From IMG/VR virus record IMGVR_UViG_3300023179_000041, positions 42,279 to 106,278 of that record: a stretch of 64,000 bases of DNA; one strand, written 5' to 3'. Under the pieces are notes generated by a model. The model saw nothing but the letters and a program-made list of their open reading frames with translations. It was not told the DNA's origin and did not search any database. The DNA comes from a virus. Each line of letters opens with the position of its first letter. The first letter of the stretch is position 1. A program made the position numbers and the translations under genes. Positions 5,736-42,414 of the stretch are shown one piece after another.

Positions 5736-6195
5736 ATACGTTTTTTGCCCCAATGAATCCATGATGGATGAGGCTGTTTTGCTCGCCAAAGAGTGGTCAT
5801 TGCCAATATTAAACGGTGATTCGGAGCGGTCAAAAAATGTTCATTTTGATAGAAATATTGTTTCCGTTGTTCTGATACCGATATTTAACGGGTTCGAGAA
5901 TTGTCCAGAAGTTCTGGAGCCAAACATGGCATACATATTTAGATACAGAAATGATTTCATAGATTGCGGAGAGTTGGCAGCGGTTCTGTCAACAAAAAAT
6001 CTAGGACTAAATAAAAGTTCTTTTTTACCGATACGAATGGTGTCGCCGCATGAAATAGAAATACTCGTTACAATCTCAAGTCTTGGAGAGTACTCAGTTA
6101 TGATTGCTAAAGATAAAGAGGTTTTTGCTACTCACGATTTTGCGGTTTTGCCAGATGGAAGTTCCTCTATTGAGGACTTAAGCGCGTATGATTAA
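5728..6195 (+). CDS. hypothetical protein in halogenase cluster
   Basis: 155 aa from a GTG that overlaps the preceding stop by 8 bp; it overlaps the next gene by 8 bp, so translation is coupled on both sides. Hydrophobic strands alternate with short polar stretches (NIVSVVLIPIF, EIEILVTISSL), suggesting a small alpha/beta or beta protein. No cysteine clusters, no HxD and no transmembrane helix. Function unknown; position argues for a role with the halogenase and oxygenases. Confidence 0.6.
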   Translation: MDRYVFCPNESMMDEAVLLAKEWSLPILNGDSERSKNVHFDRNIVSVVLIPIFNGFENCPEVLEPNMAYIFRYRNDFIDCGELAAVLSTKNLGLNKSSFLPIRMVSPHEIEILVTISSLGEYSVMIAKDKEVFATHDFAVLPDGSSSIEDLSAYD

Positions 6196-6892
6196 TTTCC
6201 CCAGTGGCAGGTCTACCTGCATAGCATATATAGATAACGCAATATCTGTTGACGATTGCAACTTTCTGATAGCAGAATGCACTAAAAATTATGACAAACT
6301 ATTTTCCCCTGGCCCGACCATAGGTGGCGTAAACACAAGAATCAAAAACTCGATGGATTTTGGTTTGTCCGAAGAATCTGACAAGATTTATCAAACTGGC
6401 AACAATAATTTTTTGAAAGCAACGCAATTTGTCCTAGATGGTCTTGGAACCGCAATGGCTCTATATTTGGAAGAGTTCAAAGAATTGCAGCACTCAACAG
6501 CATTAACGAGTACTGGTTTTAGACTTCAGCACTATCCAAGAAAACAGGGTTATTACAGGCGGCATCATGATGGCGCGCCATGGGACCCGGACCCGATAAA
6601 CAGCAGAGTGCTTGGGGTGGTCATATACTTAAACACCATTAAGCATGGTGGTGGGACAGAATTCCCAGAACAAAATTGCGAGATAGAGGCAAAGGCTGGA
6701 AGAATCGCTCTTTTCCCAGCAAATTGGACACATCCACACGCGGGGAAAGTTCCAATATCATGCGACAAGTGGATTATCAGCACATTTATTGTCTGCGATA
6801 GAATACATTCAGAACAATCAGTCGTTGTTCAGCCAGAGCAAATTAAATCGTATGATGACATTGAAAAACTTTTAGCGAATGAGGAAAAGTGA
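6188..6892 (+). CDS. Fe(II)/2-oxoglutarate oxygenase (P4Hc/PKHD-like)
   Basis: 234 aa. R-R-H126-H-D128-G supplies the HxD iron pair, G-G-G-T-E-F-P-E at about 154-161 is the usual strand after it, and T-H-P-H184-A-G-K gives the distal histidine, with K194 as a possible 2-oxoglutarate ligand. The double His in T-H-P-H is typical of PKHD-type hydroxylases. Together with 2810-3424 and 7622-8233 this makes three oxygenase-like genes within 5.5 kb. The stop overlaps the next start by 4 bp. The substrate may be a protein side chain or the same small molecule handled by the halogenase. Confidence 0.85.
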   Translation: MINFPSGRSTCIAYIDNAISVDDCNFLIAECTKNYDKLFSPGPTIGGVNTRIKNSMDFGLSEESDKIYQTGNNNFLKATQFVLDGLGTAMALYLEEFKELQHSTALTSTGFRLQHYPRKQGYYRRHHDGAPWDPDPINSRVLGVVIYLNTIKHGGGTEFPEQNCEIEAKAGRIALFPANWTHPHAGKVPISCDKWIISTFIVCDRIHSEQSVVVQPEQIKSYDDIEKLLANEEK

Positions 6893-7621: not shown

Positions 7622-8233
7622 ATGACTATTAAAATAGTTGATTTTTTGTCTGCCGACGAAAGAGCGCGCGTCATTGAGTATGCAATGTGCAGACCGTGGT
7701 CAAAAGACAGTTGGGGACGTTTCACTTGTGACTTTCCTGTTTGGGACGTTCAAAACCTTGACTGGCTGTACGAGAAATCCGCCAATGCGGCATCTGCTGC
7801 GTTTGGCGCAGACGGCATTATTCCGACCTACTACAAATTTTGCAAGTATTCACCGCGTTACGGTATTCCAAGAGTCCCACCACACATAGATGAAAATGCA
7901 TGCACATATACAGTTGACATACAACTTGATTCAAATATTGACTGGTCTATATATATTGATTTTGATGAATATCTCCTTAAGGATGGAGATGCGGTTTTAT
8001 ACATGGGCGAAGACCAACTTCATTGGCGCCCAAAATTTCCAACAGATGATGAGTCGGATTCAATCTCAATGCTTTTCATGCATTATGCGCACCAGAATCA
8101 TTGGTTTTTTGAATATGGACAAGATTTTATGAGAAATCCAGAACTTCACAATATTTGGGTTCAAAGAATGCAAACTTTGCTTGCCTCGAACAAACACAAA
8201 ACGATGACAGAAATTGACGACGGAATATTATGA
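7622..8233 (+). CDS. 2OG-Fe(II) oxygenase-like protein
   Basis: 203 aa. The start is taken at ATG 7622, one base after the previous stop, rather than a TTG at 7613. P-P-H88-I-D90-E-N-A fits the HxD motif, Y-M-G-E-D-Q-L-H134-W-R-P supplies the distal histidine and a possible arginine for 2-oxoglutarate, and the spacing of about 46 residues fits the family. Compared with the two other oxygenases the G-G-E/T-F-P strand is not clear, so assignment is less certain. A leaderless promoter for the next gene overlaps its 3' end. Confidence 0.7.
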   Translation: MTIKIVDFLSADERARVIEYAMCRPWSKDSWGRFTCDFPVWDVQNLDWLYEKSANAASAAFGADGIIPTYYKFCKYSPRYGIPRVPPHIDENACTYTVDIQLDSNIDWSIYIDFDEYLLKDGDAVLYMGEDQLHWRPKFPTDDESDSISMLFMHYAHQNHWFFEYGQDFMRNPELHNIWVQRMQTLLASNKHKTMTEIDDGIL

Positions 8234-8245
8234 ATGTGCTATCAT
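8214..8245 (+). promoter_or_regulatory. promoter, TTGACG / TGC-TATCAT
   Basis: TTGACG, a 20-bp spacer, then TATCAT with an upstream TG dinucleotide (extended -10). The ATG at 8252 lies 6 nt after the -10, which predicts a leaderless mRNA. The long spacer makes the -35 doubtful. Confidence 0.4.
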
Positions 8246-8251
8246 GTTTTC

Positions 8252-8692
8252 ATGAACAAATTTCAACAATTCTTCAGACCAACCACGCAAGATGAATTGG
8301 CAGAACTAGCCAAAAAACTAACCCCTCCAGACGACATAAGAGACCTAGTTCCGATTCCAGGTAGACCAGAAGACTGGCTATTTTACGGAGTACAAAAGAA
8401 AGCACAGTCATTTTTCTCGACGATGGCGGCTCAAACCAAAAGGTTTGGGTCTCGTGAATACTGGACAAAGGTCAACGCAATTGAGGCGATATCCTTCACC
8501 ACGAAGATATCTATCATTTTCCCTGGTCTTTTATTTGGCAAACAATGGTGGTGGCTGTATCTCTTCGCCCTGGTGTCAAGTGCGGCGCTTGTGGCAACAT
8601 CAACCATAAAGACTTTACCGACGATAATTTGGTTCAATATTATTTGGATTGTTCTAGCCTCACTATCAATCGCAAAGCACTTTATTCAATGA
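8252..8692 (+). CDS. small integral membrane protein
   Basis: 146 aa from ATG 8252, chosen because a TATCAT -10 box ends 6 bp upstream. The first about 85 residues are polar and basic and should be cytoplasmic. The rest has three hydrophobic stretches (SIIFPGLLFG, WWWLYLFALVSSAALVATS, IIWFNIIWIVLASLSIA), i.e. two or three transmembrane helices. No family recognised. It sits between the oxygenase cluster and the glycosyltransferases, so it could serve cell-envelope modification, but nothing in the sequence proves this. Confidence 0.65.
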   Translation: MNKFQQFFRPTTQDELAELAKKLTPPDDIRDLVPIPGRPEDWLFYGVQKKAQSFFSTMAAQTKRFGSREYWTKVNAIEAISFTTKISIIFPGLLFGKQWWWLYLFALVSSAALVATSTIKTLPTIIWFNIIWIVLASLSIAKHFIQ

Positions 8693-8809
8693 CGCAAGCG
8701 GCGGGATACTGATAGAAATTCAAGACAACTTGGTTGATTAACTACTTGTTTTCGTTGGCGTAATCAAAAGTCTTAAAAATTTGATGCCCTATACGTTACA
8801 ATTTAGTCA

Positions 8810-9889: not shown

Positions 9890-10984
9890 ATGGCAAAAAT
9901 TGAATTCAGCGTTGGTTTTGTTTCTACCGACTGGTCTCAGGTTGATGGTCAAATAGTGCCAAATGGCTGCACGTGGTACAGATGTATTTTGCCTTCACAT
10001 GAGTTGCTGAAGTCTGGAATAAAATCGGCGGTTGGGCTCATTCAAATTCACGAAAATAGAGGTTTTGGCGTTGGCGGCATCGGGGTGCAAAAAGTAGGTA
10101 CACATAAAATCATTGTGATGAAAGTAATAATGCATAAGTTGGTTCGCGACCATATTAAAAAAGCACAAAAGTACGGCCAAAAAATAGTTGTAGATATCGA
10201 CGATTTGTTTGATGAGATTCATGAAAGCAATATGGCTCACGGCTCGACAGACCCAACAAAAAACAAAGACAACAATCGAGTCATTTATAGTGAAATTATT
10301 GAGGCCTCTGACGCGCTTATTTGCTCGACCCCATTCATAGCGGAACATTACAAAGCAATGTTCCCAAGAAAACCTATATTTGTAATCAGGAATTCAATTG
10401 ATGCCGGTAGATGGATACCATTTAACTCCGTTGAGAGGCAGCCAATTATCGGCTGGCTAGGCGCAACTCCATGGCGCTCATTAGACCTTGAGCAATTATC
10501 TGGTTTTTTCAACGAGTATCTTGAGTCTAGAAATGCAAAATTTCATCATTCGGGATACTTAAAGTGGGCCCCGCTCGCCCATAACAAATTGGGGATTAAG
10601 GATGCAAAGCGCGTAACGGTGTCTCCAATGGTGCCACTTATGGAGTTGCCACAAACATACGCAAACTTTGATATTGGAATTGTGCCGTTAAACGACATAC
10701 CTTTCAATCGAGCAAAATCCTTCATTAAGGGCCTTGAATACGCGGCGGCTGGGATTCCATTTGTTGCTTCTGCACTGCCCGAATATGAATATCTTTCTGC
10801 TTGCGGCATAGGAACGATTGCGTCAAATAAAAGAGAATGGTTTGATGCCCTTGATTCATTGCTGGACGCAGGCAAAAGAGAGAAAGAAAGTTATAGGTGT
10901 AGGAAGATAGTTGAGGCCGATTTTTCTATTCAGGCGCACCGTAAAGAGTGGATTTCCGTGTTTAGGGAGATTGACAAGTTGTAG
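9890..10984 (+). CDS. glycosyltransferase, GT-B fold (GT4-like), copy 2
   Basis: 364 aa, 3 bp downstream of copy 1 and clearly its paralogue along the full length: N-G-C-T-W-Y-R-C, K-I-V-V-D-I-D-D-L-F-D-E, I-I-G-W-L-G-A-T-P-W-R-S-L-D-L-E-Q-L, and K-S-F-I-K-G-L-E-Y-A-A-A-G-I-P-F-V-A-S line up residue for residue. Tandem duplication with divergence suggests two linkages on the same acceptor or two donors. The acceptor is unknown. Nearby candidate acceptors in this window are the Thr-rich protein at 11034-13172 and the tail fibres. Confidence 0.85.
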   Translation: MAKIEFSVGFVSTDWSQVDGQIVPNGCTWYRCILPSHELLKSGIKSAVGLIQIHENRGFGVGGIGVQKVGTHKIIVMKVIMHKLVRDHIKKAQKYGQKIVVDIDDLFDEIHESNMAHGSTDPTKNKDNNRVIYSEIIEASDALICSTPFIAEHYKAMFPRKPIFVIRNSIDAGRWIPFNSVERQPIIGWLGATPWRSLDLEQLSGFFNEYLESRNAKFHHSGYLKWAPLAHNKLGIKDAKRVTVSPMVPLMELPQTYANFDIGIVPLNDIPFNRAKSFIKGLEYAAAGIPFVASALPEYEYLSACGIGTIASNKREWFDALDSLLDAGKREKESYRCRKIVEADFSIQAHRKEWISVFREIDKL

Positions 10985-11033
10985 GACTGCGATATTTTCT
11001 CTATCTGACCAAGAGAAATAGTATGCGGTCAAA

Positions 11034-31871: not shown

Positions 31872-33191
31872 ATGTCGGACAACATTCAAGTAAATACAGA
31901 GATAGTTGAAATCACCAGTCTTAAGCCATACCCAAAGAACCCGCGTCGCGGTGATGTTGAGGCAATCGCACAATCACTCAAAGTGAATGGACAGTACAAA
32001 CCAATCGTCGTGAATAAGCGCGACAACACCATTCTTGCCGGTAACCACACATGGAGAGCGGCACGAAGCCTGGGCTGGACACACATTGCAGTTTCGTTTG
32101 TCGATGTAGACGATTACGGTGCGCAAAAAATTGTTCTGGCTGACAATCGCACGTCCGATATGTCTTCCTATGACGATTCAAAACTCCTTGACCTTCTGCA
32201 ATCGTTGTCGACGCTTGATGGAACAGGATTCCAGCAGGTTGACATCGACCAACTTGAAGCACTAATTAGCGGAGACGGAGAATTTGAAGCGCCTAACCGA
32301 GATAGAACCGGCGCGGTTGGCAAGGAAATTCGTGTATGTGTTGGAAGTTACAGAATTCTTGTTGATGACGATGTTTACTCTGATTGGGCAAATGATATTG
32401 CTACAAAAGTTGGAGATGATGACAAGGTTCTAGTCGAACTCAAGAAGCGTTTACGTCTTTCAGATGTAACTCATTTACCACCAGAAAAAACAAAGCCAAA
32501 GCGACAAAAACGAAATATCGACAGGCAGCAAATGCACTCTGTGATGCTTTCTACGGAAAATGTCGACATCAATAGCGTCTTCCCATACCCGCTCAATGCA
32601 CGACAGGGCGATATCGGCCTGATTGCTGAATCTTTAAGCAAGAACGGTCAGTTCCGGCCAATTGTTGTCAACAAACGGGACAATTCAATCTTGGTTGGTA
32701 ATCACACGTGGAAGGCAGCCAAGATGTTGGGGTGGAAACAAATTGCGGCAACCTTTGTTGATTGCGATGAGGAGGAGGCAGCAAAGATTGTTCTTGTGGA
32801 CAACAAGACTGCAGACCTTGGGTCTTATGACCATGTTGAACTAGCAGAAATTCTTCAAACACTTCCAGTGTTTGACGGAACCGGATATACAGGAGATGAC
32901 TTAGACGACCTGATGCATGAGGTCGCCGGTTGGGGTATCAAAGAAAAACCAGTCAAAGAAAAGAACGATAAGCCCAGAAACGTTACGGCGATTATCGGAA
33001 AGTGGGAGTTCAAGATGGCGCCTAACTTTTATGAAGATTGGGAAGAGGCAATGTTTGTTGAGTTCGGATACTCATATGAAGAGGTTTGCGCTGGAATTGT
33101 TGGTCTTTTGGACATTCAAAACGATGCATGGGTTTCTACCCGTCAGCGACGTTCAAAGAAGGTCAGCCCGCGTAGGGCAAACGGAGAATAA
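31872..33191 (+). CDS. tandem ParB/Srx-domain protein
   Basis: 439 aa with two copies of the ParB/sulfiredoxin-like domain. Copy 1 (about 8-135): P-Y-P-K-N-P-R-R-G-D, V-N-G-Q-Y-K-P-I-V-V-N-K-R-D-N-T-I-L-A-G-N-H-T-W. Copy 2 (about 230-350): P-Y-P-L-N-A-R-Q-G-D, K-N-G-Q-F-R-P-I-V-V-N-K-R-D-N-S-I-L-V-G-N-H-T-W. Both keep the G-N-H nucleotide-site motif, while copy 2 has lost the P-R of N-P-R. ParB/Srx folds bind or hydrolyse nucleoside triphosphates; phage versions often accompany DNA methyltransferases. The stop overlaps the next ATG (TAATG). Confidence 0.85.
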   Translation: MSDNIQVNTEIVEITSLKPYPKNPRRGDVEAIAQSLKVNGQYKPIVVNKRDNTILAGNHTWRAARSLGWTHIAVSFVDVDDYGAQKIVLADNRTSDMSSYDDSKLLDLLQSLSTLDGTGFQQVDIDQLEALISGDGEFEAPNRDRTGAVGKEIRVCVGSYRILVDDDVYSDWANDIATKVGDDDKVLVELKKRLRLSDVTHLPPEKTKPKRQKRNIDRQQMHSVMLSTENVDINSVFPYPLNARQGDIGLIAESLSKNGQFRPIVVNKRDNSILVGNHTWKAAKMLGWKQIAATFVDCDEEEAAKIVLVDNKTADLGSYDHVELAEILQTLPVFDGTGYTGDDLDDLMHEVAGWGIKEKPVKEKNDKPRNVTAIIGKWEFKMAPNFYEDWEEAMFVEFGYSYEEVCAGIVGLLDIQNDAWVSTRQRRSKKVSPRRANGE

Positions 33192-34738
33192 TGAAGCCCG
33201 TTCTTGCATCAGTAACAGACTTAAGGCCATCTGCATACAATCCGCGCAAAGCGGATGCAGAGAGGCTTGAGTTGGTTGAATTATCGCTGCGCAAGTTCGG
33301 TTGGCTATTACCTATCTACGCAGACAAGGATGGCGAGATTCTCAGTGGTCACCAGCGCCACATGGTCGCCACAAATATGGGAGCCACGATGGTCCCCGTC
33401 GTGCGTGTTCCTTCGTTCAAGATTGAGCGACGCATGGGCATCAACGTCCTTTATAACCGTGCTACGAACGACATGTACAAAACTCGTTCAACCACAGAAC
33501 TCAAAGATGACCTAATGGCAAAACTTGGAGACCTTGAGAAAATCAAGATGCTCCCAGACATCCCTGTTGATTCTCTAGAATGGTATCCAGTACTTAAGAC
33601 CAAGCCGGTTTCCACTCTTAGGCTCATACAACTGAACGGAAAATGGCCGGAACAGCACGCAGTTGCTATGGCAGCGCAGTTAAAAACTAACGGGCTTCCC
33701 CAGATGCCGGTCATCTGCACCACTGACTACAAGGTTCTCAATGGCCTTGCCAGGCTGACATACGCAGTGTCAGTAAATGAAGACTTTGTTCAGACCGTAC
33801 AGGTAGCGCCAGACATTGCCGAAGAGGTAACAGCAATGCTGAACCTTCTGACGATGGATTACAACATTCAAGAACGATATGAAGACCTGCTTCGATACAA
33901 CTCGTTTCGTCGAAAAAACCAACGGGTTCAGATTCTCACACCAACATTCTTGGAAGATTTTCTCCGCCACTTCATTAACTCTGGCAATCGTAACGGCGCC
34001 TTTGAACTCGATAACCCGCGCCATGTAGAACTATGGAAAGAGTATTACGGCACTCACGTCATTGACTTTGGTGCTGGTCTATGCGACAAGACTCAGATTC
34101 TCCGAAACATGGGAGTGGATGCAGTTGAATTTGAGCCTTTCTTCCTTGCCAAAGACAACGAAACAATCGATACGGACGCCGCTCGCGAACTTACGTCAAA
34201 ATTCCTTGCCCGCGTTGCGGACGGTACGGAGTGGGACAGTATCTTTATCGCTTCGGTATTCAACAGCATCCCATTCCTGCAAGACCGCAAACACGTGATT
34301 GCCATTGTCGCTTCCTTGTCGTCCCCACATACAAAACTCCACACAGCCGCTATATGCACGGAATCAGACCGTTGGTTCAATCACACTCGCGGAGATTTAA
34401 AGAAGGGACACGACACGTCAAGCAACGGATTTGCCCTTGATTACGAGCCACGCATCATCATCTCCGATATCGCTCTAAAGCCAAAGGTCCAGAAGTACCA
34501 TACCGAAACCGAGTTCAGCGAACTCATTAGGCACGGCTACCGGCATGTAGATACGTTCTTGACCGCCAAAAACGGGCTTGTTCAAGCCGTTGGTTCCAAT
34601 GCCCGACAAATTGGGGTCGACGAACTACGTGTTGCAATTGAGTTTGAGTTCAATGTCCCACATCCAGAAGGCCGTCGTCTTGGAATGGTGGAGGAAGCAA
34701 AAGCGGCGTTTTCCAAGAGGCTTGGGATTCAATTATGA
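33191..34738 (+). CDS. ParB/Srx domain fused to methyltransferase-like domain
   Basis: 515 aa. Residues about 1-110 are a ParB/Srx domain (A-Y-N-P-R-K-A-D, L-S-L-R-K-F-G-W-L-L-P-I-Y-A, I-L-S-G-H-Q-R-H-M-V-A). About 110-270 is a helical middle with a second degenerate version (LRLIQLNGKWPEQHAVAMA). From about 290 a Rossmann-type segment V-I-D-F-G-A-G-L-C-D-K-T-Q-I-L resembles class I methyltransferase motif I, with E-F-E-P-F-F as motif II. No D/N-P-P-Y/W/F catalytic motif is obvious, so the modified atom is unclear. It sits between a tandem ParB and a carboxy-SAM synthase homologue, with ATGA coupling to the latter. Confidence 0.75.
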   Translation: MKPVLASVTDLRPSAYNPRKADAERLELVELSLRKFGWLLPIYADKDGEILSGHQRHMVATNMGATMVPVVRVPSFKIERRMGINVLYNRATNDMYKTRSTTELKDDLMAKLGDLEKIKMLPDIPVDSLEWYPVLKTKPVSTLRLIQLNGKWPEQHAVAMAAQLKTNGLPQMPVICTTDYKVLNGLARLTYAVSVNEDFVQTVQVAPDIAEEVTAMLNLLTMDYNIQERYEDLLRYNSFRRKNQRVQILTPTFLEDFLRHFINSGNRNGAFELDNPRHVELWKEYYGTHVIDFGAGLCDKTQILRNMGVDAVEFEPFFLAKDNETIDTDAARELTSKFLARVADGTEWDSIFIASVFNSIPFLQDRKHVIAIVASLSSPHTKLHTAAICTESDRWFNHTRGDLKKGHDTSSNGFALDYEPRIIISDIALKPKVQKYHTETEFSELIRHGYRHVDTFLTAKNGLVQAVGSNARQIGVDELRVAIEFEFNVPHPEGRRLGMVEEAKAAFSKRLGIQL

Positions 34739-35454
34739 GGGACAAAGACAACTACAAACCAAGTGGCAAATGGACATTTGATGAGGGTGTCACGAAGGTA
34801 TTTGAAGACATGATTTCCAGGTCAATTCCTGGATATCAAACAATGCGCGATTCTGTCGTCCGAGTGGCTACGCCAATTTTGTGCGCCGCAAACGTATCAA
34901 ACTTTTTGGATGTTGGCTGCAGCCGTGGTGAAACTATCTATCAAATCCTTAACGCTCTTCCTACTGACATCCCCGCGACTGCTGTTGGTGTCGACTCCAG
35001 CCAGCCCATGATTGATGCTGCTGCTGAACTTTTTGGGAACTTTGACAATGTTCGATTTGTTTGTGCGGATGTCAGCGATATCGAGATAAGGCCCTTCGAA
35101 TATTCGCTTATTACGTCGGTACTCACCGCGCAATTCATTCCTCTTGATGTCCGCCAAAATTTCTATCAACAGGTGCATAATGGTTTGTCCTTAAATGGGG
35201 CGTTTATTATCGTCGAAAAGATACTTGGCGAGACTCCACTTTGTCAGGATTTGCTGGTTGACATTTATCACACTTTTAAAGCCGACAACGGTTATACGCA
35301 CGAACAGATAGAAGAGAAGCGGAAGTCACTTCAGGGAGTTTTGGTTCCGCTTCGTGGTTCGGAAAATGAAAAAATGCTCAAAGATGCCGGCTTTATAAAT
35401 GTTCAGCGTTTCTGGCAATGCCTGAACTTTGCTGGTTGGGTGGCATTCAAATGA
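34735..35454 (+). CDS. cmoA: carboxy-SAM synthase homologue (CmoA-like)
   Basis: 239 aa, the same size as E. coli CmoA, and collinear with it by eye: W-T-F-D-E-G-V-T-K-V-F-E-D-M-I-S-R-S-I-P-G-Y (13-34), L-D-V-G-C-S-R-G (58-65), V-G-V-D-S-S-Q-P-M-I (84-93), T-F-K-A-D-N-G-Y (180-187), and the C-terminal W-Q-C-L-N-F-A-G-W-V-A-F-K. Arg196 falls on E. coli Arg199, which holds the carboxylate of the product. CmoA converts SAM and prephenate to carboxy-SAM, which CmoB uses on wobble uridine. No CmoB is visible here, so the phage may feed carboxy-SAM to its own ParB-methyltransferase or to a host enzyme. Confidence 0.85.
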   Translation: MRDKDNYKPSGKWTFDEGVTKVFEDMISRSIPGYQTMRDSVVRVATPILCAANVSNFLDVGCSRGETIYQILNALPTDIPATAVGVDSSQPMIDAAAELFGNFDNVRFVCADVSDIEIRPFEYSLITSVLTAQFIPLDVRQNFYQQVHNGLSLNGAFIIVEKILGETPLCQDLLVDIYHTFKADNGYTHEQIEEKRKSLQGVLVPLRGSENEKMLKDAGFINVQRFWQCLNFAGWVAFK

Positions 35455-37887: not shown

Positions 37888-38460
37888 CTAGCGGTACGGC
37901 TCTCCATGTGCCCACGTAGTCAAGGAATACCTAACCCCCGACTCTACGGGTAGGACCTGATGAAGGGTCCACGAAGGCCACACGGTGGCGTACCCCTGAA
38001 CAGCGGAGATTGATTCCTCTTCCGGCCCCGCATATAAAACAACCCTCCCGCCTTTGTAGTTGTAGTGGGAGGACAGTTGGACGGTCATGGACAACTTCCG
38101 CTCCCGCGCCGCCCCGTATGACCAATCGGTATGACGCCCGTATCCATCCCCGACCTGATACTCCAGAACTCGGATGGACGGGATATCGGTATAGGACAGT
38201 TGCCACGGATTACCCCTGGCGAACCCCTCGTAGACGCGCTGAGAGAGGCTAGAAGCGTCGTTAAAGGTTAAACCATGTGGGTCTATCAAATATTCTTTAC
38301 AACGCCTTAAATCGCTTCCTGACGCTTGTGGGGAGTGGTGGACGAGGCCAGGTTGGGAATATCCCGATGAGATGGCGTAGTCAACGACCATTTGGGCTTC
38401 CTGCGGCGTGAACATCTGAAATTCATAATGAGTCCCCTTATTCAGCCCCTTGTTTTTCAT
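37888..38460 (-). CDS. Fe(II)/2-oxoglutarate oxygenase, minus strand
   Basis: 190 aa. G-R-H110-T-D112-W gives the iron pair, K-G-G-R-V-V-L-Y at about 136-143 the following strand, W-T-L-H167-Q-V the distal His, and R177-Y-S-L-T-T-W the 2-oxoglutarate arginine. This is the fourth oxygenase of the window and the only one on the minus strand, isolated between two rightward genes. It is related in layout to the 2810-3424 protein (both end Y-S-L-V/T-T-W). GC content is higher than in its 2.8-8.2 kb relatives, so it may have arrived separately. Confidence 0.82.
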   Translation of the reverse strand: MKNKGLNKGTHYEFQMFTPQEAQMVVDYAISSGYSQPGLVHHSPQASGSDLRRCKEYLIDPHGLTFNDASSLSQRVYEGFARGNPWQLSYTDIPSIRVLEYQVGDGYGRHTDWSYGAARERKLSMTVQLSSHYNYKGGRVVLYAGPEEESISAVQGYATVWPSWTLHQVLPVESGVRYSLTTWAHGEPYR

Positions 38461-41197: not shown

Positions 41198-41694
41198 AAA
41201 TAACCGACGACATCATCGAAAACAAGAACGCAGAACTGTGGAAGGATGCAGCGCTTAAGTACGGGACGAAATTCAAAGTTCCGAATAGCGAGCAGCAGCG
41301 CATCGGCGAACTTATCCGCGGGCTGTGCGTGATGCAGGTTTGGCAAAAAACGCCATCGGCCGGCAACATAGTGCGGTTTATGCGCGATTACTCGATTGCC
41401 CAGCCGGTAATCGAGTATCTCGTCACAGAGTACCTGGGGAAAGAACGGTTGAAAGAAGCGGTCCAAGAAAAGAAACCTGAGAAGCGCGCCGACAAGTGGA
41501 AAGCCCTTGAGGAGTGGTGCAAAAACAACACTTACAAGGAAGTAACCACCGAAGAGATTGTCGGCCTTTCGGGATTTTCTTATCCAACAGTTCTAAACTA
41601 TCTTAAAACTTCCCCATACTTCCGCAAAATACAGCGGGGCTCGTGGGAAGTGAGGGACCCCAAAGCGGATAGAGAACGAGAGAAGAATGGCTAA
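41194..41694 (+). CDS. hypothetical DNA-binding-type protein
   Basis: 166 aa from GTG 41194 (GTGA overlap, SD AGGAGA). The C-terminal third (YKEVTTEEIVGLSGFSYPTV, then LNYLKTSPYFRKIQRGSWEV) is a winged helix-turn-helix; the N-terminal part is helical. Likely a small regulator. Overlaps the next gene by 8 bp. Confidence 0.65.
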   Translation: MKITDDIIENKNAELWKDAALKYGTKFKVPNSEQQRIGELIRGLCVMQVWQKTPSAGNIVRFMRDYSIAQPVIEYLVTEYLGKERLKEAVQEKKPEKRADKWKALEEWCKNNTYKEVTTEEIVGLSGFSYPTVLNYLKTSPYFRKIQRGSWEVRDPKADREREKNG

Positions 41695-42148
41695 GAAGTC
41701 AACTGAGCGCATCGTACTGATGGACTTGAACGTGGCTTTGTCGTCCAACTTCAGCGAGATGCGTAATCATGCCTTTGAAGACTTCGTAAACAATCACGAG
41801 GACTATCGGAAGTGGATGACGGAACTACTTGACCCGGAATTTACGATTCTGATTACGGCGCGCAACATCAAGTGGGCCATTCCCACGTTGAAGCGCATAT
41901 ATGACCGTACCGGATGGCAGCCAGACCTCGCCCTCTTTAACGACACAGACATCGATGGCCAAGATGCTCCGGCAATCAAGGAGTATCAGATGGTCAATCG
42001 AGTATTCAAGAAATTCGGGAATGACACAGGTAAATACCACGCCATTGACTCAAACGCGAATACGCGGGCGATGTACAAGCGGCTTGGGCTGAGCAGCGTG
42101 CATGACTGTGCGCGCGGCAAGGACATGTGGTTCAGGCTCCCCTTTTAA
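41687..42148 (+). CDS. HAD-like phosphatase domain protein
   Basis: 153 aa. I-V-L-M-D-L-N-V-A at about 9-17 corresponds to HAD motif I (DxD with N as third residue), F-T-I-L-I-T-A-R-N at about 52-60 to motif II, and the later F-N-D-T-D and A-I-D-S-N-A to motif IV. Size and I-T-A-R fit the phosphatase half of phage polynucleotide kinases and 5'-nucleotidase-like proteins. The missing second Asp may reduce activity. Confidence 0.6.
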   Translation: MAKKSTERIVLMDLNVALSSNFSEMRNHAFEDFVNNHEDYRKWMTELLDPEFTILITARNIKWAIPTLKRIYDRTGWQPDLALFNDTDIDGQDAPAIKEYQMVNRVFKKFGNDTGKYHAIDSNANTRAMYKRLGLSSVHDCARGKDMWFRLPF

Positions 42149-42171: not shown

Positions 42172-42414
42172 ATGACAAGGAAGACGGAGTTCCGGCAGCC
42201 GCCGGGACCACGAAACGGCAGCCCATTTCAGGTTGCGCGTTTCGTAGACAAACTCAAAGAGACTCCTGGCGAGTGGGCGGTGTACTGCACCGGCAACATC
42301 GCGCGCACGGGTCACTCCAAAGCACAGCAATACAAGAAGCGATATCCGGGTACGGAATGGATTGTGCGACGCGAAGAAGGCGGCTACACCGTCTTTGGAA
42401 GATGGGTGGGGTAG
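42172..42414 (+). CDS. hypothetical protein
   Basis: 80 aa. P-G-E-W-A-V-Y-C-T-G-N-I-A-R-T-G-H-S-K-A-Q-Q-Y-K-K-R-Y-P-G (in two stretches) then E-W-I-V-R-R-E-E-G-G-Y-T-V-F-G-R-W, a pattern seen in small actinophage proteins that look like DNA-binding domains. No assigned function. Confidence 0.6.
   Translation: MTRKTEFRQPPGPRNGSPFQVARFVDKLKETPGEWAVYCTGNIARTGHSKAQQYKKRYPGTEWIVRREEGGYTVFGRWVG

Follow-up and report, generated by a model that had tools for sequence, protein, structure and literature searches.

A phage CmoA homologue adjoining a ParB–methyltransferase fusion: a candidate nucleic acid carboxymethylation module

Results

Organization of the locus

We analysed a 64,000-nucleotide stretch of viral DNA (the window; positions 42,279 to 106,278 of IMG/VR record IMGVR_UViG_3300023179_000041) in which three adjoining genes encode a ParB-like protein, a fusion of two ParB-type domains with a methyltransferase domain (ParB-MTase), and a homologue of CmoA, the synthase of carboxy-S-adenosylmethionine (carboxy-SAM). 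The features of these genes, in window coordinates, are as follows.

31872–33191 (+): tandem ParB/Srx-fold protein, 439 amino acids; two PF02195 (ParB_N) stretches; ParB-like by phrog_8071/723
33191–34738 (+): ParB-ParB-methyltransferase fusion (ParB-MTase), 515 amino acids; full-length match to phrog_5475 (E = 7.7e-88)
33191–33475 (+): ParB-MTase, ParB-type domain 1, with YNPR and GHQR motifs (PF02195; Noc/ParB structures 7ng0 and 6sdk)
33584–33928 (+): ParB-MTase, ParB-type domain 2, with NGxxR motif (hhalign, 97%; repeated secondary-structure pattern in the AlphaFold2 model)
33974–34735 (+): ParB-MTase, class I methyltransferase domain and COOH-terminal helices (AlphaFold2, Foldseek, conservation)
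34064–34078 (+): methyltransferase motif I, DFGAG (conservation)
34130–34141 (+): methyltransferase acidic motif, FEPF (conservation)
34262–34276 (+): methyltransferase NSIPF motif, after the strand at residues 350–354 (conservation)
34478–34501 (+): methyltransferase KPKVQKYH, with PK..K invariant (conservation)
34735–35454 (+): CmoA homologue (carboxy-SAM synthase family), 239 amino acids (TIGR00740; PDB 1im8, 4gek)
35317–35319 (+): CmoA homologue, K195 codon (alignment)
35320–35322 (+): CmoA homologue, R196 codon, corresponding to Arg199 of E. coli CmoA (alignment)

The initial annotation, made from the letters of the sequence, had described a CmoA-like protein coupled through ATGA to a ParB plus methyltransferase-like protein, itself coupled to a tandem ParB protein, with no CmoB in sight. 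The open reading frames (ORFs) and their junctions were as it described them, with TAATG joining the 439- and 515-amino-acid ORFs and ATGA the 515- and 239-amino-acid ORFs. Profile searches and AlphaFold2 agreed on the composition of the fusion, the second ParB-type domain of which the annotation had not named, and CmoB (TIGR00452) had no match in the entire 106-kb virus record. Comparison with the nearest relative (locus L019) revealed purifying selection on the ParB, MTase and CmoA genes as well as on a HAD-like gene further downstream, with ratios of nonsynonymous to synonymous change (pN/pS) of 0.05–0.11 for the three module genes and 0.04–0.11 for all four.

The CmoA homologue

Residues 11–239 of the 239-amino-acid protein were collinear with CmoA (PDB 1im8, E = 7.9e-35; 4gek, E = 1.1e-27), in line with the collinearity that had been claimed for it. 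TIGR00740 was its top NCBIfam model (162 bits, E = 1.6e-47), with the next-best family other than CmoA giving an E value of 2e-05. The score misses the curated cut-off of 193, which is no objection because the experimentally proven CmoA of Synechococcus phage S-B43 scores lower (116 bits). Cofactor-contacting residues of E. coli CmoA were taken from PMC3663124. Tyr39, Asp62, Gly64, Ser66, Asp89, Asp117, Glu164 and Arg199 are all kept in the window protein, the alignment bearing out the earlier assignment of R196 to the position of Arg199, and Asn132 is replaced by Val, a position that is also hydrophobic in S-B43 CmoA. The cofactor contacts are mostly retained, and sequence comparison confirmed that 34735–35454 encodes a CmoA homologue.

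Among 218 aligned phage CmoA homologues, Lys165 and Lys198 were invariant and Arg199 was absent in many, including S-B43 CmoA. The accepted carboxylate contact, Arg199, is on this alignment not universal among phage CmoAs. A highly divergent CmoA-like protein of Pseudomonas Samunavirus PA_L9 (locus L003, 11534–12271) carries F for Tyr39, S for Glu164 and T for Arg199 and still adjoins ParB-MTase; to judge from these substitutions, its function may have changed.

The ParB-MTase fusion

The AlphaFold2 model of the 515-amino-acid protein (predicted local distance difference test score, pLDDT, of 85) comprised two ParB-type domains followed by a class I methyltransferase. PF02195, corresponding to ParB-type domain 1, was found in 27 of 27 family members scanned, the window protein itself scoring 17.3 bits, under the cut-off of 26.3. 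Domain 2 matched both domain 1 and the upstream ParB (hhalign, 97% probability), and the ParB Box II arginines, R56 and R188, are conserved in at least 97% of sequences.

Given that a Foldseek search with the whole multidomain model was uninformative for the methyltransferase part, this domain was refolded alone (pLDDT 90, predicted template modelling score 0.89), and Foldseek then returned class I N- and C-methyltransferases. PF13489 gave a weak match in 16 of the 27 members scanned. Comparison of 141 and of 45 sequences showed four motifs to be conserved with few or no exceptions: DFGAG, FEP[FY], NS[IV]PF and PK..K. The [DNS]PP[YFW] catalytic motif of N6-adenine and N4-cytosine DNA methyltransferases was not found, the position reading NS[IV]PF, and no family of such enzymes appeared among the Pfam matches or the 50 Foldseek matches listed. 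ParB-MTase did not match the CmoB family. A common origin of CmoA and the methyltransferase domain was also considered and found no support with hhalign (3% probability).

Association of ParB-MTase with CmoA

Loci were collected from viral contigs, phage records and GTDB genome contigs. CmoA adjoined ParB-MTase in 135 of the 137 loci with sufficient flanking sequence, being located downstream in 134 and upstream in one, and the two unlinked exceptions (L097 and L100, both prophages in metagenome-assembled genomes, or MAGs) showed a decayed prophage-remnant context. Many of the loci are near-duplicates, and dereplication left about 40 CmoAs below 80% identity. TIGR00740 was the best match for all nine diverse partner CmoAs that were checked independently against NCBIfam. 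Packaging genes aside, the only recurrent neighbours of the pair across divergent lineages were ParB, CmoA and HAD, and the module frequently adjoins terminase genes. Phage CmoA is genetically tied to a transferase without CmoB.

ParB-MTase loci were present in an actinophage and in contigs titled Alphaproteobacteria, Gammaproteobacteria, Verrucomicrobia, Clostridia, Desulfovibrionaceae, Bacteroidales, Chloroflexi and Leptolyngbya, many of which are MAGs whose host titles may carry binning errors. Culturable phages bearing ParB-MTase are Gordonia phage Evaa, Aeromonas phage HJ05 and Pseudomonas Samunavirus. A scan of viral contigs with the window CmoA alone returned only close relatives.

Mutual exclusion and exchange with CmoX

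Phage S-B43 possesses a CmoA–CmoX–CmoY system in which CmoA and CmoX make 5-carboxymethylcytosine in phage DNA; CmoX is a DNA cytosine C5-carboxymethyltransferase that is fed by phage CmoA and accepts carboxy-SAM only (PMC12783734). The published CmoX signature, a C5-methyltransferase fold with SPPC and Arg350, was well represented in the control CmoX proteins (Cys98 in 92 of 92, Arg350 in 90 of 92), and the 106-kb record of the window virus contained no PF00145 match. CmoX was found near none of 136 pairs of ParB-MTase and CmoA, and ParB-MTase near none of 87 pairs of CmoX and CmoA; a Fisher test of this mutual exclusion was computed but not used, since the loci had been ascertained via one partner. 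Whole records contained PF00145 C5-methyltransferases in 5 of 5 control CmoA phages compared with 1 of 45 ParB-MTase phages, and the single protein in the latter carries ALGN rather than the CmoX Arg at the position of Arg350. C5-methyltransferases located near loci L021, L022, L028, L094 and L095 were examined as possible CmoX proteins and rejected on their low scores with the CmoX profile; these scores, together with ALGN at the Arg350 position in the two that were read (L021 and L094), make them look ordinary. ParB-MTase itself is not a C5-methyltransferase of the CmoX kind, given its motif set and the lack of an invariant cysteine.

In the CmoA tree, a rapid reconstruction in which some branches are long, CmoAs linked to ParB-MTase and to CmoX were interleaved, with about 16 partner changes, at least 6 of which are forced by strongly supported branches. 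A single clade of ParB-MTase-linked CmoAs was rejected (approximately unbiased test, p-AU = 4e-67), and CmoAs as much as 72% identical were found with different partners. The simplest account of these relations is a shared module of ParB and CmoA with an exchangeable transferase, which makes ParB-MTase the likely consumer of carboxy-SAM.

Two phage records contained CmoA with neither partner. Alcaligenes phage Afa-NA1 (L004; CmoA at 7983–8735) has no PF00145 C5-methyltransferase or ParB-MTase in its record, and some 2.5 kb downstream of CmoA it has a gene that is annotated as a DNA adenine methylase; this arrangement is possibly a third class of CmoA partner. The human faecal phage contig MT835562 (L088; CmoA at 5953–6744) has no CmoX or ParB-MTase in its 32-kb record, which may be a fragment.

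Neighbouring genes

An upstream ParB gene was adjacent in 129 of 130 ParB-MTase loci and lay within 2.5 kb in 42 of 45 CmoX loci. By its sequence, the 439-amino-acid protein of the window corresponds to a doubling of the small ParB that related loci encode ahead of the transferase. One further gene of the window belongs to a family that recurs at these loci:

41687–42148 (+): HAD-like protein, phrog_32036, 153 amino acids, about 6 kb downstream of the module

This HAD-like gene was located near 116 of 146 ParB-MTase loci compared with 0 of 92 CmoX loci. In many relatives it lies between ParB-MTase and CmoA, instead of downstream as in the window. Its motif I reads DLN (D-x-N) where DxD is usual (window 41687–42148; L083, 10054–10545). 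A CmoY-type amide ligase (PF00733) was detected in just 1 of 45 ParB-MTase records, that of Aeromonas phage HJ05 (OQ594355, locus L002), where a weak Asn-synthase-like PF00733 domain at 10737–11015 is the sole candidate.

Two other window genes were noted. A WhiB-family protein (PF02467; 36631–37353, plus strand) suggests that the host of the virus is actinobacterial. A 2-oxoglutarate-Fe(II) oxygenase-like protein (phrog_61, E = 4e-25; 37888–38460, minus strand) is encoded near the module on the opposite strand, and nothing ties it to the carboxy-SAM module.

Discussion

The favoured reading of the three genes, to which we assign a probability of about 0.62, is that they constitute a phage carboxymethylation module in which ParB-MTase uses phage-made carboxy-SAM to modify nucleic acid, most likely phage DNA. 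CmoA (34735–35454) would make carboxy-SAM from SAM and host prephenate, and ParB-MTase (33191–34738) would then attach the carboxymethyl group to nucleic acid, the DNA of the phage itself being the most likely target. The two ParB folds and the upstream ParB protein may serve to bring the enzyme onto DNA or hold it there, perhaps in a nucleotide-gated manner. Carboxymethylation would change the surface of the DNA and could shield it from host nucleases. The comparative genomic data strongly support the neighbouring ParB-MTase, and not CmoB, as the recipient of the carboxy-SAM made by the phage. We infer cofactor use by ParB-MTase, its probable DNA target, ParB-dependent loading and protection. 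The initial annotation had proposed that the phage makes carboxy-SAM for a modifying enzyme of its own, giving an unusual DNA or RNA base that could resist restriction. This interpretation is partly supported: linkage, exclusion of CmoX, partner exchange and scarcity of CmoB point to ParB-MTase as the consumer, and a carboxymethylated product could resist restriction.

Several observations weigh against such a module. Arg199 is missing in 39 of 131 CmoAs linked to ParB-MTase, as it is in the proven S-B43 CmoA. The methyltransferase domain resembles small-molecule class I methyltransferases (template modelling scores of about 0.45–0.5) and not a known DNA base methyltransferase, and in the alignment it contains neither a DPPY motif nor an invariant Cys, the absence of the latter making CmoX-type chemistry unlikely. 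A carboxylate-binding Arg was not located in ParB-MTase, for which the only candidates are the invariant K432 and K435, and R366.

The module might carboxymethylate RNA or protein instead, for instance tRNA or host proteins of transcription or defence, with CmoA still supplying ParB-MTase. The transferase fold is nearer to class I methyltransferases of the small-molecule and tRNA types (Trm9, 5cm2, being among the matches) than to those acting on DNA bases, and tRNA modification is the ancestral role of CmoA. We nevertheless consider such a target unlikely, given that the enzyme has two ParB-type domains in addition to an adjacent ParB, that it takes the place of CmoX, which is proven to act on DNA, and that terminase genes often adjoin the module. 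ParB-MTase could also be a plain SAM-dependent DNA methyltransferase, with CmoA being kept for another, unrecognised enzyme or for SAM depletion, a possibility that was raised in PMC12783734; the preference of ParB-MTase for carboxy-SAM is itself a prediction. Depletion alone, however, has no need of a linked transferase, no other transferase recurs with the pair in divergent lineages, and exchange with CmoX, given its exclusive use of carboxy-SAM, implies a common cofactor need. The chance that this explanation is correct therefore appears slim.

A boost by phage CmoA of the host cmo5U34 tRNA pathway through host CmoB, with ParB-MTase an ordinary SAM-dependent methyltransferase that is a neighbour by chance, would accord with the known cellular role of CmoA and with the presence of CmoB above the curated cut-off in the Vibrio and Photobacterium host assemblies. 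These were, however, only 2 of 33: CmoB was below the cut-off or missing in the other 31 host assemblies, including those of Clostridia, Bacteroidales and Verrucomicrobia, many of them incomplete MAGs. The tRNA route is unlikely because of this scarcity and the lack of CmoB in the virus record, and CmoB-based tRNA modification was ruled out as a candidate on the phage and host searches. Linkage in 135 of 137 loci is also inexplicable by chance proximity, and we regard a boost of the host pathway as highly improbable.

ParB-ParB-MTases might form a second class of DNA carboxymethyltransferase, dependent on carboxy-SAM and not homologous to the first, without a cysteine nucleophile, probably acting on a base heteroatom and loaded by an NTP (nucleoside triphosphate)-binding ParB clamp; we put this forward tentatively, at somewhat less than even odds. 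CmoX is so far the only proven enzyme class for phage DNA carboxymethylation, and comparative genomics indicates that the same supply of carboxy-SAM is tapped by an unrelated family of transferases, which is spread among the phages and prophages of several bacterial phyla. Confirmation would bring to light a new natural chemistry of DNA (or RNA) modification, provide a reason for phage ParB–methyltransferase fusions, and put a carboxyl handle at another position of a nucleobase.

Comparison with known systems

A literature search found no paper connecting ParB-methyltransferases with CmoA; subscription papers and bioRxiv preprints were outside its scope, so that priority is not assured. As in the E. 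coli CmoA–CmoB pathway for tRNA cmo5U34, the locus encodes a CmoA homologue with carboxy-SAM residues, but it has no CmoB and the partner lies outside the CmoB family. A survey of ParB folds, which are able to bind NTPs, described a ParB-CTPase fold fused to Methyltransf_23 and enriched in phages and prophages (PMC12704722). The domain combination is the same as that of ParB-MTase, whereas function was there left at predicted DNA methyltransferase and the term CmoA is absent from the paper. The gp2 protein of Gordonia phage Evaa, a "ParB-N-terminal-like domain methyltransferase" (phrog_5475), is a full-length homologue (39% identity) with a CmoA homologue, gp5, nearby; unlike in the window, the HAD gene of Evaa lies between gp2 and gp5, on the opposite strand.

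The closest parallel is the S-B43 CmoA–CmoX–CmoY system (PMC12783734), which shares the same CmoA family in one interleaved tree, an adjacent transferase, the lack of CmoB and, in many contigs, a ParB neighbour. It differs in that its transferase is a C5-methyltransferase with a catalytic Cys and a carboxylate Arg, rather than a ParB-ParB-class I methyltransferase, and in its CmoY amide ligase, which is missing from nearly all ParB-MTase records, where a HAD-like protein is often present instead. A preliminary search in the same study turned up no carboxymethyltransferase of the N6-adenine or N4-cytosine type in association with phage CmoA. The use of phage carboxy-SAM for DNA modification is thus already published (PMC12783734), and the new part is the transferase.

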